A model generated the notes under the pieces. It worked only from the letters and a program-made list of their open reading frames with translations. It searched no databases and had not been told where the DNA came from. Position numbers and translations under genes: made by a program. A stretch of 63,266 nt of DNA from Chloroflexota bacterium (GTDB lineage Bacteria > Chloroflexota > Anaerolineae > Promineifilales > Promineifilaceae): NCBI GenBank assembly GCA_018004935.1, contig JAGNBF010000003.1:91230-154495 (forward strand), in the 5' to 3' direction. This document shows, one piece after another, positions 4,445 through 63,266 of the stretch; position 1 is the stretch's first letter; each line of letters begins with the position of its first letter.

Positions 4445-4566
4445 CCCACCCCCTCCGATTCCAGAGGGAAGGGGGGAACCCCAACGGCGCGGTTTGGGGG
4501 CGTCCGCCTCCAAACCGCGCCAAGAAAAGTTCCCCGCCCCTGGGGGCGGGGTTAGGGGTGGGGTGG
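4445..4566. repeat. Variable-hairpin G/C-frame repeat, copy 1
   Basis: Most of the 4321-4603 gap is one copy of the conserved frame: a pyrimidine-rich 'CCCACCCCCTCC...GGGAAGGGGGG' segment, a hairpin core at 4486-4521 (GGCGCGGTTTGG paired with CCAAACCGCGCC, extended inward with one G-T pair), then GTTCCCCGCCCCTGGGGGCG and GGTTAGGGGTGGGG. The element ends about 38 bases before the likely start of the carboxyltransferase gene. The remaining bases show no gene. Confidence 0.85.
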
Positions 4567-13645: not shown

Positions 13646-13707
13646 ACCGTTCAGGGCAATTGCCTACTCACCCAAATGAACCCATCCCCTGACGCCTTCC
13701 CAATTGT

Positions 13708-13893
13708 CGTTTAAAAAATTAATCAGGTAATGGAATCCCCCCCACCCTAACCCCGCCCCCAGGGGCGGGGAACTTTTCTAAGGGGCATTTTTCGGGGCAT
13801 TCGCCCCGAAAAATGCCCCATGGGAATTCCCCCCTTCCCGAGGGAATCGGCAGGGGGGATGGGGTCAATGAAGGCGTTACCCGATTAAAAATT
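13708..13893. mobile_element. MITE-like element M2 carrying the G/C frame (inverted)
   Basis: The ends AAAAAATTAATCAGGTAATG and CGTTACCCGATTAAAAATTT are good inverted repeats with few mismatches. The interior is the G/C frame in reverse orientation around a perfect 17-bp stem (GGGGCATTTTTCGGGGC at 13782-13798, loop ATTC, complement to 13819). No coding capacity is seen. Confidence 0.8.
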
Positions 13894-13894
13894 T

Positions 13895-13970
13895 AATGAA
13901 CAAAAGGGAAGAGGGAAAACCGCACCAGAAATTGTTCTCCGCCTCTGGGGCGGGGTTAGGGGTGGGGGTT
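13895..13970. repeat. Partial G/C-frame repeat overlapping the Nudix 3' end
   Basis: AAGGGAAGAGGGAAAACCGC is followed by a shortened core and then CTGGGGCGGGGTTAGGGGTG. The last codons and TAA stop of the Nudix gene (minus strand, reading ...CCC CAC CCC TAA) are supplied by this element. Confidence 0.7.
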
Positions 13971-14622: not shown

Positions 14623-14802
14623 AAATTATTAATCGGGTAATGAGTTAATTCGCCCTCCTGCGATTTCCGGTGGGAGGGGGAAACACCAGGCGTGCCGGAT
14701 ATTGAGCGCGGCCGCGCTCAATATCCGGCACATGAGAAAGTTCCCCACCCCTGGGGGCGGGGTTAGGGGTGGGAGAAACCCTATTACCTGACTGTTTTTT
14801 TA
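14623..14802. mobile_element. MITE-like element M3 with 40-bp perfect palindrome
   Basis: The ends AAATTATTAATCGGGTAATG and CCTATTACCTGACTGTTTTT match M1 closely. The core at 14692-14731 is a perfect 40-bp palindrome (GTGCCGGATATTGAGCGCGG joined to its exact complement) with GCGGCCGC at its centre, followed by the frame end GTTCCCCACCCCTGGGGGCG. The rest of the 14541-14907 gap shows no gene. Confidence 0.85.
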
Positions 14803-56538: not shown

Positions 56539-57486
56539 ATGAATCATTTCCGACCTGATCTGACAAAACGGCCAAACGTTATTTTGGCCCTCCTACTCTG
56601 GCTCTTTCTCACTGCCTGTACAAGTGCTCCCGAATCAGTGGCCCAGGCAACGCTAACAAAAGCAGTGGTATCTACGGGAACCGCGGCCGCGATGCCCACC
56701 CTCAGCCCCTCTTTTACCCCTTCCCCCTTGTCCACCCTGCCGCCTCCTGCCACCCCTACCCCCTTGCCCACCAGCACGGCCACCGCCACACCCCTGGCGA
56801 CATTGACACCCACCTGGACACCCACCCCCTCTCTCTCGCCCACGCCAACCGGCTGTGAACGGCGCATCTTCACCGACGATCTTCTCACCATTGTTACCCG
56901 CACCTACGGTCTGAGCCGAGATTATGCTCCCAGAGATTTGGTCAGCCTGAGTGATTATTTCCCTGTCGCGGTGACCCTGGGTTATCCTAGTCAGGTACGC
57001 CAGATTATGGTGGAGCCATTAGTACAAATGGTAACGGCCATGCAAGCCGCCGGGTTAGAGCCATTCATCATCTCCGGTTATCGTAGTTACTCCGCTCAGT
57101 CCATTGCCTACAACAAATGGCAGACAACCTACCCAGAGAGTGCCGACATTGTTTCGGCCCCGCCGGGTCATAGTGAACATCAATTGGGCACAACCATTGA
57201 TTTTGGCTCGCCGGAACTGCCGGAACTGGTAGGGCAGGCGGATATTGAGTTTCACACCTATTTTTACCAGACCAGCGAGGGGCAATGGCTTCTTGAACAT
57301 GCGCATGAATATGGTTTTACGCTCAGTTTTCCTCGTGAAGCATTTGAATTGACTGGGTTTTATTATGAACCCTGGCATTATCGTTATGTGGGGGTGGAGA
57401 TGGCTTCTATGTTGCAGGCAATTGGTATGTCGCTTACGGAGTATCAATTAATCAACTCGCCACCACCCTGCATTCCCTCACCGTAA
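56539..57486 (+). CDS. VanY-like D-Ala-D-Ala carboxypeptidase lipoprotein
   Basis: 315 residues. A signal peptide ends in a lipobox (WLFLTAC, Cys27). A Thr/Pro/Ser-rich linker (about 45-115) leads to an M15B peptidase domain: IISGYRSYSAQSIAYNKW, GHSEHQLGTTIDFG (the zinc-binding SxHxxGxxxD pattern) and EPWHYRYVG (third ligand). It trims peptidoglycan stem peptides outside the membrane. One octamer lies in the linker start. Confidence 0.9.
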   Translation: MNHFRPDLTKRPNVILALLLWLFLTACTSAPESVAQATLTKAVVSTGTAAAMPTLSPSFTPSPLSTLPPPATPTPLPTSTATATPLATLTPTWTPTPSLSPTPTGCERRIFTDDLLTIVTRTYGLSRDYAPRDLVSLSDYFPVAVTLGYPSQVRQIMVEPLVQMVTAMQAAGLEPFIISGYRSYSAQSIAYNKWQTTYPESADIVSAPPGHSEHQLGTTIDFGSPELPELVGQADIEFHTYFYQTSEGQWLLEHAHEYGFTLSFPREAFELTGFYYEPWHYRYVGVEMASMLQAIGMSLTEYQLINSPPPCIPSP

Positions 57487-57584
57487 CGATACTCAGCACG
57501 GGTATAAAGAGACATTTCGTTGGGTGACGAGAGACGAGTATGTTCAAGCGGTAGTTTTGGATAGATTTAGTCGAAAGACCCATC

Positions 57585-58545
57585 CCCCTCCCCCCTTCCC
57601 CAAGGGAAGGGGGAAACCCCACAGCGCCGTTTTTCGGGGCGAAGGCCCCGAAAAACGGCGCTCAAAAAAGTTCCCCGCCCCTGGGGGCGGGGTTAGGGGT
57701 GGGGGCTGTGCCCCCTAAACCACAGTGTGGGGCAGATTGTGCCTGAAGGCCCACCCCCTTGCGCTCCCCGAGGGAAGGGGGAAACCCCACAGCGCCGTTT
57801 TTCGGGGCGAAGGCCCCGAAAAACGGCGCTCAAAAAGTTCCCCGCCCCTGGGGCGGGGTTAGGGGTGGGGGCTGTGCCCCCTAAACCACAGTGTGGGGCA
57901 GATTGTGCCTGAAGGCCCACCCCCTTGCGCTCCCCGAGGGAAGGGGGAAACCCCCACAGCGCCGTTTTTCGGGGCGAAGGCCCCGAAAAACGGCGCTCAA
58001 AAAAGTTCCCCGCCCCTGGGGGCGGGGTTAGGGGTGGGGGCTGTGCCCCCTAAACCACAGTGTGGGGCAGATTGTGCCTGAAGGCCCACCCCCTTGCGCT
58101 CCCCGAGGGAAGGGGGAAACCCCACAGCGCCGTTTTTCGGGGCGAAGGCCCCGAAAAACGGCGCTCAAAAAGTTCCCCGCCCCTGGGGCGGGGTTAGGGG
58201 TGGGGGCTGTGCCCCCTAAACCACAGTGTGGGGCAGATTGTGCCTGAAGGCCCACCCCCTTGCGCTCCCCGAGGGAAGGGGGAAACCCCCACAGCGCCGT
58301 TTTTCGGGGCGAAGGCCCCGAAAAACGGCGCTCAAAAAAGTTCCCCGCCCCTGGGGGCGGGGTTAGGGGTGGGGGCTGTGCCCCCTAAACCACAGTGTGG
58401 GGCGATTATGTCTGAAGGCCCATCCCCTTGCACTCCCCAAGGGAAGGGGGAAACCCCCACAGCGCCGTTTTTCGGGGCGAAGGCCCCGAAAAACGGCGCT
58501 CAAAAAGTTCCCCGCCCCTGGGGGCGGGGTTAGGGGTGGGGGGAA
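57585..58545. repeat. Tandem array of the G/C-frame hairpin element (about six units)
   Basis: Unit phase markers (GCTGTGCCCCCTAAACCACA) begin at 57705, 57871, 58040, 58206 and 58375, giving spacings of 166, 169, 166 and 169 bases. So there is a 335-bp dimer repeated twice. Each unit has a perfect 18-bp hairpin (AGCGCCGTTTTTCGGGGC, loop GAAG; first at 57623-57662) followed by GTTCCCCGCCCCTGGGGGCG and GTTAGGGGTGGGG. Open frames across it read only repeat sequence and are not taken as genes. Confidence 0.95.
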
Positions 58546-58614
58546 ATCCCATAGGCATTCGCCCCGGATACCAGTTACAAAATTTATCCCAAGTTCAAAG
58601 AGGCAAGGAAACAA

Positions 58615-60258
58615 ATGATGACGTTGTTAAAACAATTGCTGTGGGGTGGTTATTGGGGGGCGGCCTTACTTCTCCTCCTGGCAGGATGTGGAATTAAGAG
58701 GTCAATCGCGGCCGCGAACCCCTCCCCCTCCCCCATTACCATTACCCTTGCTCCTACCACCACCTTCACCCCCTTGCCGCCAACAGTTACCCTGGCCCCC
58801 ATTGCCACCTTCACCCCCATCCCAACAGCCACCGCGACGGCCACCGCCACCGCCACCCCAACCCCCGTACCCCTTGTACAGATAGCCTTGCCAGCCACCT
58901 GGGCCAATCTTGAACCACTCATTTTGGCGGATAACACTACCAATACGGCCTGGCAATGGGCAGTTACCTTCACCGAGGCCCCAGAAACGATCGCCGCCCC
59001 CTTGACTCTGGTTCCTGGAGAAACCACCCTGCCCGTAGGGACAATACCCCTGGCATTGGTTGTGCCCTTTACCCATCGTTGGGAAGATGTTGATGGAGTA
59101 ATGGCTCAATACATCCTGGCTAACGGGCATGAACTGGCGGTAGTAAGACCCTGGCGGGAGATAACACCCCAATTTAAGGCGTTGCGGGTGGATGGTTTGC
59201 GGCCGCCGGATGAAGGGTACCCCCTGCAACAGCCCTGGGGGATCAGCGCAATGGCCGGATATGAGGCGGCCGGAGAAGCGTTAGCGGCATTATTGCGGCC
59301 GCACTTTCCCGCCGATACAGTGGTTCATTTAGGTGCTGTGGGTGACCTCATGTTGTCGCGCACATTAGGCAACTACATCGCCGCTGGCGATCTGGCCTAT
59401 CCCTTCCAATACCTGCCCGAATACCTCACCTCCCCCGACTACACCATCGGCAACCTGGAAACCTCGTTGGGTGACATCGGCGAGCCAGCCCCCAAAGCCT
59501 ATCCCTTCCAATCTCCTCTCGGTTCGGCCGAGGCCCTGGCCTTGGGCGGCTTTGATCTGGTCTCTCTGGCCAATAACCATGCCATGGATTATGGCCCGGA
59601 AGCGTTGTTGCAAGGATTGGATTTGCTGGCGCAGGCTGGTGTGGCGGTGGTAGGTGCTGGAGTCAACGACGCGGCCGCACACACCCCTTACATCACTGAG
59701 GTCAACGGGCTTAAACTGGCCTTTTTGGGGTATGTCCATGTTCCGCGTGAGGCCAGTAGTGGCTTCGATGTGGAAACATGGAATGCTACGACGGCGGCTC
59801 CGGGACTGGCCTGGGGTTATCCCGAACGTATCCGCGCTGATGTTGCGGCCGCGGTTCCCCTGGCCGATCATGTCATTGTCATCTTGCATAGTGGGTTTGA
59901 GTACATTGAAGAACCCAGCGAACCCCAGATTGCGGCCGCGCATGCCGCCATCGAAGCCGGAGCGACATTAGTCATTGGCCACCACGCCCATATTTTACAA
60001 GGCATTGAATATTATCAGAATGGCGTCATCGTTTACGGGTTAGCAAACTTCGCCTTCAACATTGACGGCCCCCCGGAAACCGCCATCGCCAATATCTGGC
60101 TGGATGCCGCCGGTGTGCGCCAGATCGAAATTATTCCCGCCATGGTCAAAGAGACAGGGCAACCCCGTCCAGCTCTCCCTCACGAAGCTACGCCTATTTT
60201 GGAACGGGTTTATTTTCTGACAACGATTCTAAACCCGGTTAAACCCACTACTCAATGA
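58615..60258 (+). CDS. CapA family (poly-gamma-glutamate-type) lipoprotein
   Basis: 547 residues. A lipoprotein signal (LLLLLAGCG, Cys25) and a Thr/Pro/Ala-rich linker (about 30-80) precede a less conserved domain (80-235). The CapA metallophosphatase-like domain starts near 240: VGDLMLSRTLGNYIAAGDLA, GNLETSLGDIG, SLANNHAMDYGPEALLQG, VIVILHSGFEYIEEPSEPQ and VIGHHAHILQGIEYYQNGVI. It probably acts at the outer face in capsule or wall-polymer metabolism. AAGGA precedes the ATG. Six octamers, the most in any gene here. Confidence 0.87.
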   Translation: MMTLLKQLLWGGYWGAALLLLLAGCGIKRSIAAANPSPSPITITLAPTTTFTPLPPTVTLAPIATFTPIPTATATATATATPTPVPLVQIALPATWANLEPLILADNTTNTAWQWAVTFTEAPETIAAPLTLVPGETTLPVGTIPLALVVPFTHRWEDVDGVMAQYILANGHELAVVRPWREITPQFKALRVDGLRPPDEGYPLQQPWGISAMAGYEAAGEALAALLRPHFPADTVVHLGAVGDLMLSRTLGNYIAAGDLAYPFQYLPEYLTSPDYTIGNLETSLGDIGEPAPKAYPFQSPLGSAEALALGGFDLVSLANNHAMDYGPEALLQGLDLLAQAGVAVVGAGVNDAAAHTPYITEVNGLKLAFLGYVHVPREASSGFDVETWNATTAAPGLAWGYPERIRADVAAAVPLADHVIVILHSGFEYIEEPSEPQIAAAHAAIEAGATLVIGHHAHILQGIEYYQNGVIVYGLANFAFNIDGPPETAIANIWLDAAGVRQIEIIPAMVKETGQPRPALPHEATPILERVYFLTTILNPVKPTTQ

Positions 60259-60450
60259 GTGACGAATAACACGAGTCTAGCTTTACGAAAGTAGGACGTA
60301 TGTTTTGATGAAAGTAGACAATCTTGCCCCAAAACCTGTCTGAATACCCCCCCCTTTTTCGGACGCTTTTCGGACGCCTGGCTTGTATGCTCTGACCCAT
60401 GTTTGGTTTTGCTTATTAAGAGCAACACATCAACAAGGAGAAATGAAGAC

Positions 60451-60951
60451 ATGAAGAAGCAAAAAGCCTGGTTAATGATGTTCATTATTGTCCTGACAAT
60501 GGCCATTCTGGCCTGTACCTGTACCAACAGTCTCCCTGGCGGGAATGATGAAAACAGCGGTAACAGCGGTAATAGTGGCAATAGCGGTGATACTGGTGAT
60601 AGCGGCGATACTGGCAACAGTGGTAACACCGGTGACAGTGGCGACAGCGGCAGTAGCTCTGCCGATATGGTTCAAGGTTTCCCGGTAACTTCTGATGCCT
60701 ACGAAGTTGTGGACGCCTCTTTCTCTGGCACAATCAGCGTCGTCTACAAATCCAAAATGTCTTTTGATGACATTGTCGCCTTCTACAAATCCGAAATTCC
60801 TAACCTGGGTTATAGCCTGGATCAGGATGTGACCGCGGCCGGTAATGCCGTCCTCACCTTCACGGGTGACTCCATGCTCACCGTTACCGTCTCCACGGAT
60901 CCCTTAGATTCCAGTGCGCAAGTTGTTTCTGTTAGTTCCTTACCCAATTAA
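60451..60951 (+). CDS. Small lipoprotein with SGN/SGD repeats
   Basis: 166 residues. The signal peptide ends in a lipobox (TMAILAC, Cys22). Residues about 36-70 are about eleven S/T-G-N/D triplets encoded by 9-base DNA repeats, probably a flexible spacer. The C-terminal domain (about 75-166: GFPVTSDAYEVVDASFSGTI, MSFDDIVAFYKSEIPNLGYS) is an unassigned compact domain. AAGGAG at 60435-60440 supports this ATG. A strong terminator follows. Confidence 0.82.
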   Translation: MKKQKAWLMMFIIVLTMAILACTCTNSLPGGNDENSGNSGNSGNSGDTGDSGDTGNSGNTGDSGDSGSSSADMVQGFPVTSDAYEVVDASFSGTISVVYKSKMSFDDIVAFYKSEIPNLGYSLDQDVTAAGNAVLTFTGDSMLTVTVSTDPLDSSAQVVSVSSLPN

Positions 60952-62749: not shown

Positions 62750-62833
62750 GGAACCCCCACCCCTAACCCCGCCCCCAGGGGCGGGGAATGATTTCTGGCG
62801 CGGTTTGGCGGGCAGACGCCCGCCAAACCGCGC
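62750..62833. repeat. G/C-frame repeat copy with 16-bp hairpin
   Basis: The frame (CCCCACCCCTAACCCCGCCC in inverse sense) leads to a perfect 16-bp stem at 62798-62833 (GCGCGGTTTGGCGGGC, loop AGAC). The stem shares GCGCGGTTTGG with the copy at 4486. Confidence 0.85.
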
Positions 62834-63266
62834 TGTTGGATTTCCCCTTTCCCTCGGGGATCGCGGGGGGCGGGGTCTTCTACCCAAACTGGCCCTTTTC
62901 TGGCCTCGTTTCAGATGCAGAGGGTTGCAGGGAATGATTTCTGGCGCTGTTGGATTTCCCCTTTCCCTCGGGGATCGCGGGGGGCGGGGTCTTTTGCCCA
63001 AACTGGCCCTTTTCTGGCCTCGTTTCAGATGCAGAGGGTTGCAGGGAATGATTTCTGGCGCTGTTGGATTTCCCCTTTCCCTCGGGGATCGCGGGGGGCG
63101 GGGTCTTCTACCCAAACTGGCCCTTTTCTGGCCTCGTTTCAGAGGCGGAAGGTTGCGGGGAATGTATTCTGGCGCTGTTGGATTTCCCCTTTCCCTCGGG
63201 GATCGCGGGGGGCGGGGTCTTTTGCCCAAACTGGCCCTTTTCTGGCCTCGTTTCAGATGCAGAGGG
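62832..63266. repeat. 114-bp tandem array, runs off the window
   Basis: GCTGTTGGATTTCCCCTTTC begins at 62832, 62946, 63060 and 63174, exactly 114 bases apart. The variant position alternates (GTCTTCTACC, GTCTTTTGCC, GTCTTCTACC, GTCTTTTGCC), so the true period is a 228-bp dimer. Because 114 is divisible by three, a long minus-strand frame stays open through it, but it has no recognisable protein content. Confidence 0.92.

Follow-up and report, generated by a model that had tools for sequence, protein, structure and literature searches.

Purine-motif intrastrand triplex (PIT/TM) motifs, known in Escherichia coli as TM_ECO, include a type A that is found paired with another type placed in the inverted orientation; they are always intergenic, show no strand bias, and are linked to rearrangements (Holder et al. 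2015, PMC4666352). In Streptococcus pneumoniae, BOX elements combine end modules with tandem inner modules whose number varies (PMC3049150). In addition, insertion sequences that target REPs have been described (Tobes & Pareja 2006, PMC1525189; ISPpu9, PMC8450116). Here we analyzed a stretch of 63,266 nucleotides (the window) at the end of contig C190 of a fragmented metagenome bin (7.98 Mb, 229 contigs, 96.6% complete) from an uncultured Chloroflexota lineage, in which a tandem array lies between vanY- and capA-like genes. Most probably, the array arose when an intergenic repeat, non-autonomous and mobile-looking, was amplified locally in tandem, and it is tolerated by the genome rather than serving as a dedicated regulator. 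The repeat belongs to a very abundant and apparently undescribed family; the literature on Ardenticatenales repeats yielded nothing relevant.

Array of hairpin units between vanY and capA

The sequence-only reading had reported six perfect hairpins in tandem, with spacings of 166/169/166/169, between VanY-like and CapA-like genes on the plus strand. Both the repeats and their spacing were reproduced. Tandem Repeats Finder returned 57597-58542 of the window with a period of 168 (5.6 copies, 97% matches) and also with a period of 335 (2.8 copies, 98% matches), and a repeat search of the window gave start-to-start distances of 166/169/166/169. The same search found six perfect inverted repeats, each AGCGCCGTTTTTCGGGGC-GAAG-GCCCCGAAAAACGGCGCT (18-bp stem, 4-nt loop), at hairpin-to-hairpin distances of 168/167/168/167/168. 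The linker type between units 1 and 2 was found again in later units. The fold z-score of one unit against dinucleotide shuffles was -5.2 on the plus strand and -6.2 on the minus strand. The identities of the flanking genes were likewise upheld by Pfam matches (Table 1), and their lipobox-like N-termini were read from the sequence. Further downstream, a small lipoprotein-like ORF (60403-60951) contains a GNSGDTGDSG repeat stretch; its collagen-type match is weak and does not reach the Pfam cut-off.

The unit alignment showed that the sole differences among units 1-4 are three homopolymers varying by one base (C4/C5, A5/A6, G4/G5), that units 2 and 4 are identical, and that true substitutions (n = 5) are confined to the last linker. 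This near-identity suggests recent amplification. It had also been proposed that a two-unit block was itself duplicated. The 335-bp period is real in the assembly; since units 1-4 differ solely in homopolymer lengths, however, the block duplication hinges on homopolymer counts, that is, on three one-base differences in a metagenome assembly.

Table 1 Features of the array, its surroundings, and related copies in the window.
Feature	Position	Strand	Remarks
Single core copy	4449..4563	+	Elsewhere in the window
Complete family-A copy with core	13704..13907	-	Situated at the tip of a further TTCCC..GGGAA hairpin
Single core copy	14656..14773	+	Elsewhere in the window; different hp2 sequence
VanY-like D-Ala-D-Ala carboxypeptidase gene	56539..57486	+	Upstream neighbor; PF02557, E 2.5e-35; lipobox-like N-terminus
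Left end of family-B shell	57489..57588	+	ATACTcAgCACGG..ATAAAGaGACATTT..; runs into CCCATCCCCC of the first core
Tandem array	57579..58542	+	Six cores joined by five linkers; period ~168, with 335 for pairs
hp2, unit 1	57623..57662		Perfect 18-bp stem, 4-nt loop
hp2, unit 2	57791..57830		Perfect 18-bp stem, 4-nt loop
hp2, unit 3	57958..57997		Perfect 18-bp stem, 4-nt loop
hp2, unit 4	58126..58165		Perfect 18-bp stem, 4-nt loop
hp2, unit 5	58293..58332		Perfect 18-bp stem, 4-nt loop
hp2, unit 6	58461..58500		Perfect 18-bp stem, 4-nt loop
Type-A triplex motif (predicted), unit 1	57673..57704	+	CCCCGCCCC-TG-GGGGCGGGG-TTA-GGGGTGGGG; hp3 and third strand
Type-A motif (predicted), units 2-6	57840, 58008, 58175, 58343, 58510		
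Linker, units 1/2	57705..57747	+	Right-shell-like fragment joined to left-shell-like one (CAGATTG..CTGAAGgCCCA), by eye
Right flank of array	58543..58614	+	B right end not recognizable
CapA-like (PGA_cap) gene	58615..60258	+	Downstream neighbor; PF09587, E 4.5e-68; lipobox-like N-terminus
Core copy, then second tandem array	62755..63266	-	Period 114, ~3.8 units; ends at contig end

Structure of the core

From left to right, the core comprises CCCAYCCCCC and a TTCCC..GGGAA hairpin (hp1), a long hairpin (hp2), CCCCGCCCCTGGGGGCGGGG (hp3), and then TTAGGGGTGGGG; that is, two inverted G/C-rich motifs of the PIT/TM type flank a long hairpin. We searched for the PIT/TM pattern as a pyrimidine block, a short loop, a purine block, a short loop, and a further purine block in mirror register, with stems of 6-15 and one mismatch permitted. 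The pattern was found in all six units, in which hp3 and its tail match the PIT/TM geometry, down to the TTA that type A has as its second loop. In an 839-kb sample of the assembly (described below), 62 of the 71 PIT/TM-type sites lay in core copies, and an order-3 simulation gave none. The strict TM_ECO consensus, CCCTCNCCC N3-6 GGGNGAGGG N3 GGGNGAGGG, had no match in the same 839 kb. The looser GGGN3GGGTTAGGGN3GGG occurred 487 times in this genome; motifs of this kind are widespread in the bacterial class, with 46 of the 150 genomes containing them. No exact match to the type-A motif was found in viral contigs. By sequence geometry, the core motifs are of the PIT/TM type, with the triplex itself being predicted, and the core copies are also intergenic and free of strand bias, as PIT/TM motifs are.

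The sequence of hp2 is highly variable between copies, yet its pairing is kept. Both sides had changed in 17 of 19 pairs, 94% of the cells were paired, and the covariation score was 0.372, compared with 0.111 for shuffles and no more than 0.088 for slid controls, the cells being non-independent events because copies within one family are related. This covariation bears out the earlier suggestion of a structured RNA as far as structure goes, the hairpin being structured as RNA or as DNA. The pairing of hp2 is maintained, and selection on RNA, selection on DNA structure, and templated palindrome correction all fit as causes. Hairpin-templated correction of imperfect palindromes during replication can keep pairing without selection.

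We consider it possible, though rather doubtful, that the core is a functional RNA or DNA element whose hp2 is kept paired by selection. The strong covariation of hp2 could mean a selected function and to that extent counts against a tolerated repeat. However, palindrome correction may produce the same pairing, the scored copies share descent, and Rfam gave no family match anywhere in the window.

Distribution of the core in the genome

A search of the own assembly placed copies of the array unit on dozens of contigs. With a core profile, we found 125 non-overlapping copies of the ~125-bp core in 839 kb from seven contigs, which were picked partly because of hits (the listed places of A elements suggest slight enrichment only). 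Extrapolation from these counts gives roughly 1,000 copies genome-wide. Plasmid records gave no match. None of the 125 copies lay inside genes predicted with our simple, home-made codon-model gene finder, and the copies occupied 92 of 526 intergenic gaps. Nineteen gaps held two or more copies, some of them three or four, and several of these were tandem arrays with other linkers; array formation is thus recurrent in this genome. The period-114 array at 62754-63266 probably broke the assembly at the contig end.

Relative to the genes, 37 copies had the same and 36 the opposite orientation. Convergent gaps held 20 copies against 13.0 expected, which was not significant (overall p 0.11). In gaps between tandem genes, the core lay closer to the upstream stop, at 108 bp, than to the downstream start, at 234 bp (p 4e-5).

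The hairpins might instead act as a terminator, an attenuator, or a stabilizer of the vanY mRNA and thereby tune capA. The very stable folds of the units and the position between genes that are tightly paired in relatives speak for such a device, and closeness to upstream stops is what transcript-end elements would show; however, this closeness also fits simple avoidance of promoters. An intrinsic terminator would need a GC-rich stem with a T-run immediately behind it, on the strand that codes for the upstream gene. None was found at the array: the plus-strand hairpins have no T-run, and terminator-like sites occurred on the minus strand only, without excess over shuffles (6 vs 4.2 ± 2.2). With these sites and the balanced orientation of the copies, the earlier proposal of a transcription barrier finds no support. 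Since about a thousand copies are dispersed among intergenic regions beside unrelated genes, the array unit is not a device dedicated to vanY and capA, and a role of the array as a dedicated regulator is unlikely.

An assembly artefact, in which the unit number or the entire array would be wrong, is quite improbable: it would suit a metagenome-type assembly of 229 contigs, units differing almost only in homopolymers, and a second array that stops exactly at the contig end, but the left and right boundary units are distinct, the last linker carries five substitutions, and similar arrays with other linkers occur at other loci. Because the assembly is fragmented, the number of units is uncertain, and the homopolymer counts may be wrong.

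Inverted-repeat shells

The cores sit within at least two different inverted-repeat shells. Shell A is a 200-bp non-coding sequence with the ends TTGTTCATT..ACGACAA; it has ~155 left ends, and at least 40 copies share at least 93% identity. Shell B has a modal length of 273 bp, the ends TATACT..AGTATA, and 261 left ends in the genome. Both resemble MITEs in being short and non-coding, with terminal inverted repeats, many copies, and sharp ends. The ends of shell B are compatible with a TA target duplication, but this is ambiguous. Among the ends listed, left and right ends of shell A pair at ~100-310 bp, and no autonomous copy was found. No transposase matching shell A or B was identified in the genome; two DDE_3 genes were considered as the parent transposase and rejected, as their ends do not match.

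Of 31 shell A insertions (13704-13907 of the window and 30 further places), 25 lay at the tip of a hairpin that predates them, where a stem score of at least 8 across the join was taken as a hairpin tip and shuffled partners gave ~10%; because several targets share hairpin families, the 31 insertions are only partly independent. Unrelated hairpin sequences were among the targets, which comprised hp1 and hp3 from other cores as well as one canonical TM motif, and target duplication at the insertions was slight or absent. Among 20 shell B insertions, none was of this kind. We tentatively propose, as a possibility well short of an even chance, that shell A recognizes the shape of hairpin tips rather than their sequence and inserts there, and that its core supplies new hairpins, both as targets and as substrates for tandem amplification of the kind seen between vanY and capA, which would make a self-feeding system of nested palindromes.

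The vanY-capA gap in relatives and the proposed origin of the array

Adjacent vanY (PF02557) and capA (PF09587) genes were found at 18 loci in relatives, of which 15 were distinct because three were present twice, in two collections. The genome sets searched contained no member of the same genus and no empty site from the same species; by DNA similarity, three of 59 genomes gave matches, including the own genome, and the other two matches were weak and partial. Comparison with the same gap had been proposed as a check. In 12 of the 15 distinct loci, the capA start (an in-frame candidate, unproven in each relative) overlaps the vanY stop or lies within ~20 bp of it, and these 12 gaps contain no core copy, versus a gap of 1,128 bp in the window. 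The remaining three relatives (L078, L079, and L097) have a wider gap with other, unrelated short palindromes, suggesting that the vanY-capA junction repeatedly receives palindromic insertions.

At the array, a left end of shell B begins 3 nt past the VanY stop and aligns to the B consensus with a local alignment score of 60 (best of 300 shuffles, 33). The right flank reached an alignment score of 21 with the B right end, not above shuffles (max 33). Given the tight vanY-capA pair at 12 of 15 distinct loci in relatives, the simplest history behind the 1,128-bp gap is an insertion that was then amplified in tandem. In such a course of events, a B element would have inserted just after vanY in this lineage, and its right end would have been lost or have diverged. 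Slippage during replication, or unequal exchange, at the hairpins would then have multiplied the core and shell fragments in head-to-tail order, followed by a further duplication as a two-unit block. The repeat may thus have separated two genes that are joined or nearly so in most relatives, and it would persist as tolerated selfish DNA. Its local effect would likely be that vanY is uncoupled from capA and that the gap length is unstable. An unstable gap length, or a recombination hot spot at the array as anticipated from the sequence, is plausible; it would fit the recurrent arrays in this genome and the published instability near such motifs (PMC4666352).

Comparison with known systems

Like RUP and other IS630-type MITEs (PMC3049150), shell B has ends (TATACT..AGTATA) compatible with TA duplication; in contrast to them, no matching transposase was found for it in the genome, and the TA duplication is inferred. 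The core also resembles REP/BIME sequences (PMC2817692, PMC3733652) in being an abundant intergenic palindrome that is sometimes arrayed. A REP/BIME-RAYT identity was rejected because the genome, which is 96.6% complete, has no RAYT. Its only Y1_Tnp match lies towards the C-terminus of a 388-aa regulator-like protein (646-1812 of L031) that has no RAYT context; this part is possibly a domesticated transposase domain. As with REP-targeting insertion sequences, shell A enters intergenic palindromes, but it hits many unrelated hairpin tips and is a 200-bp non-coding sequence with inverted ends. If confirmed, its preference for hairpin tips would be a clear case of structure-guided insertion.

The core shares with PIT/TM (PMC4666352) a G/C-rich Y-R-R motif whose type-A second loop is exactly TTA, an inverted pairing with a second motif type, intergenic positions without strand bias, and many copies. 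The middle bases of the core motifs differ from those of TM_ECO (no strict match in the 839 kb sampled), and the core differs further from PIT/TM in the long covarying hairpin between the motifs, the inverted-repeat shells, the copy number of ~1,000, and the tandem arrays. The family ties triplex motifs, which have been reported at unstable loci with no known route of spreading, to mobile shells with inverted repeats, and it makes many natural copies available for asking whether triplex motifs drive tandem amplification.

The pneumococcal BOX element (PMC3049150) appears, by analogy, to be the closest architectural precedent for the array. In both, structured inner modules are intergenic, clustered, nested, and mobile-like; in contrast, the array is unrelated in sequence, and its unit is larger and GC-rich. 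Read in BOX-like modules, the array has a left end and six inner modules, with the right end not recognized, and other loci have one to four cores. What seemed one odd array is thereby an example of an abundant, apparently undescribed repeat family.
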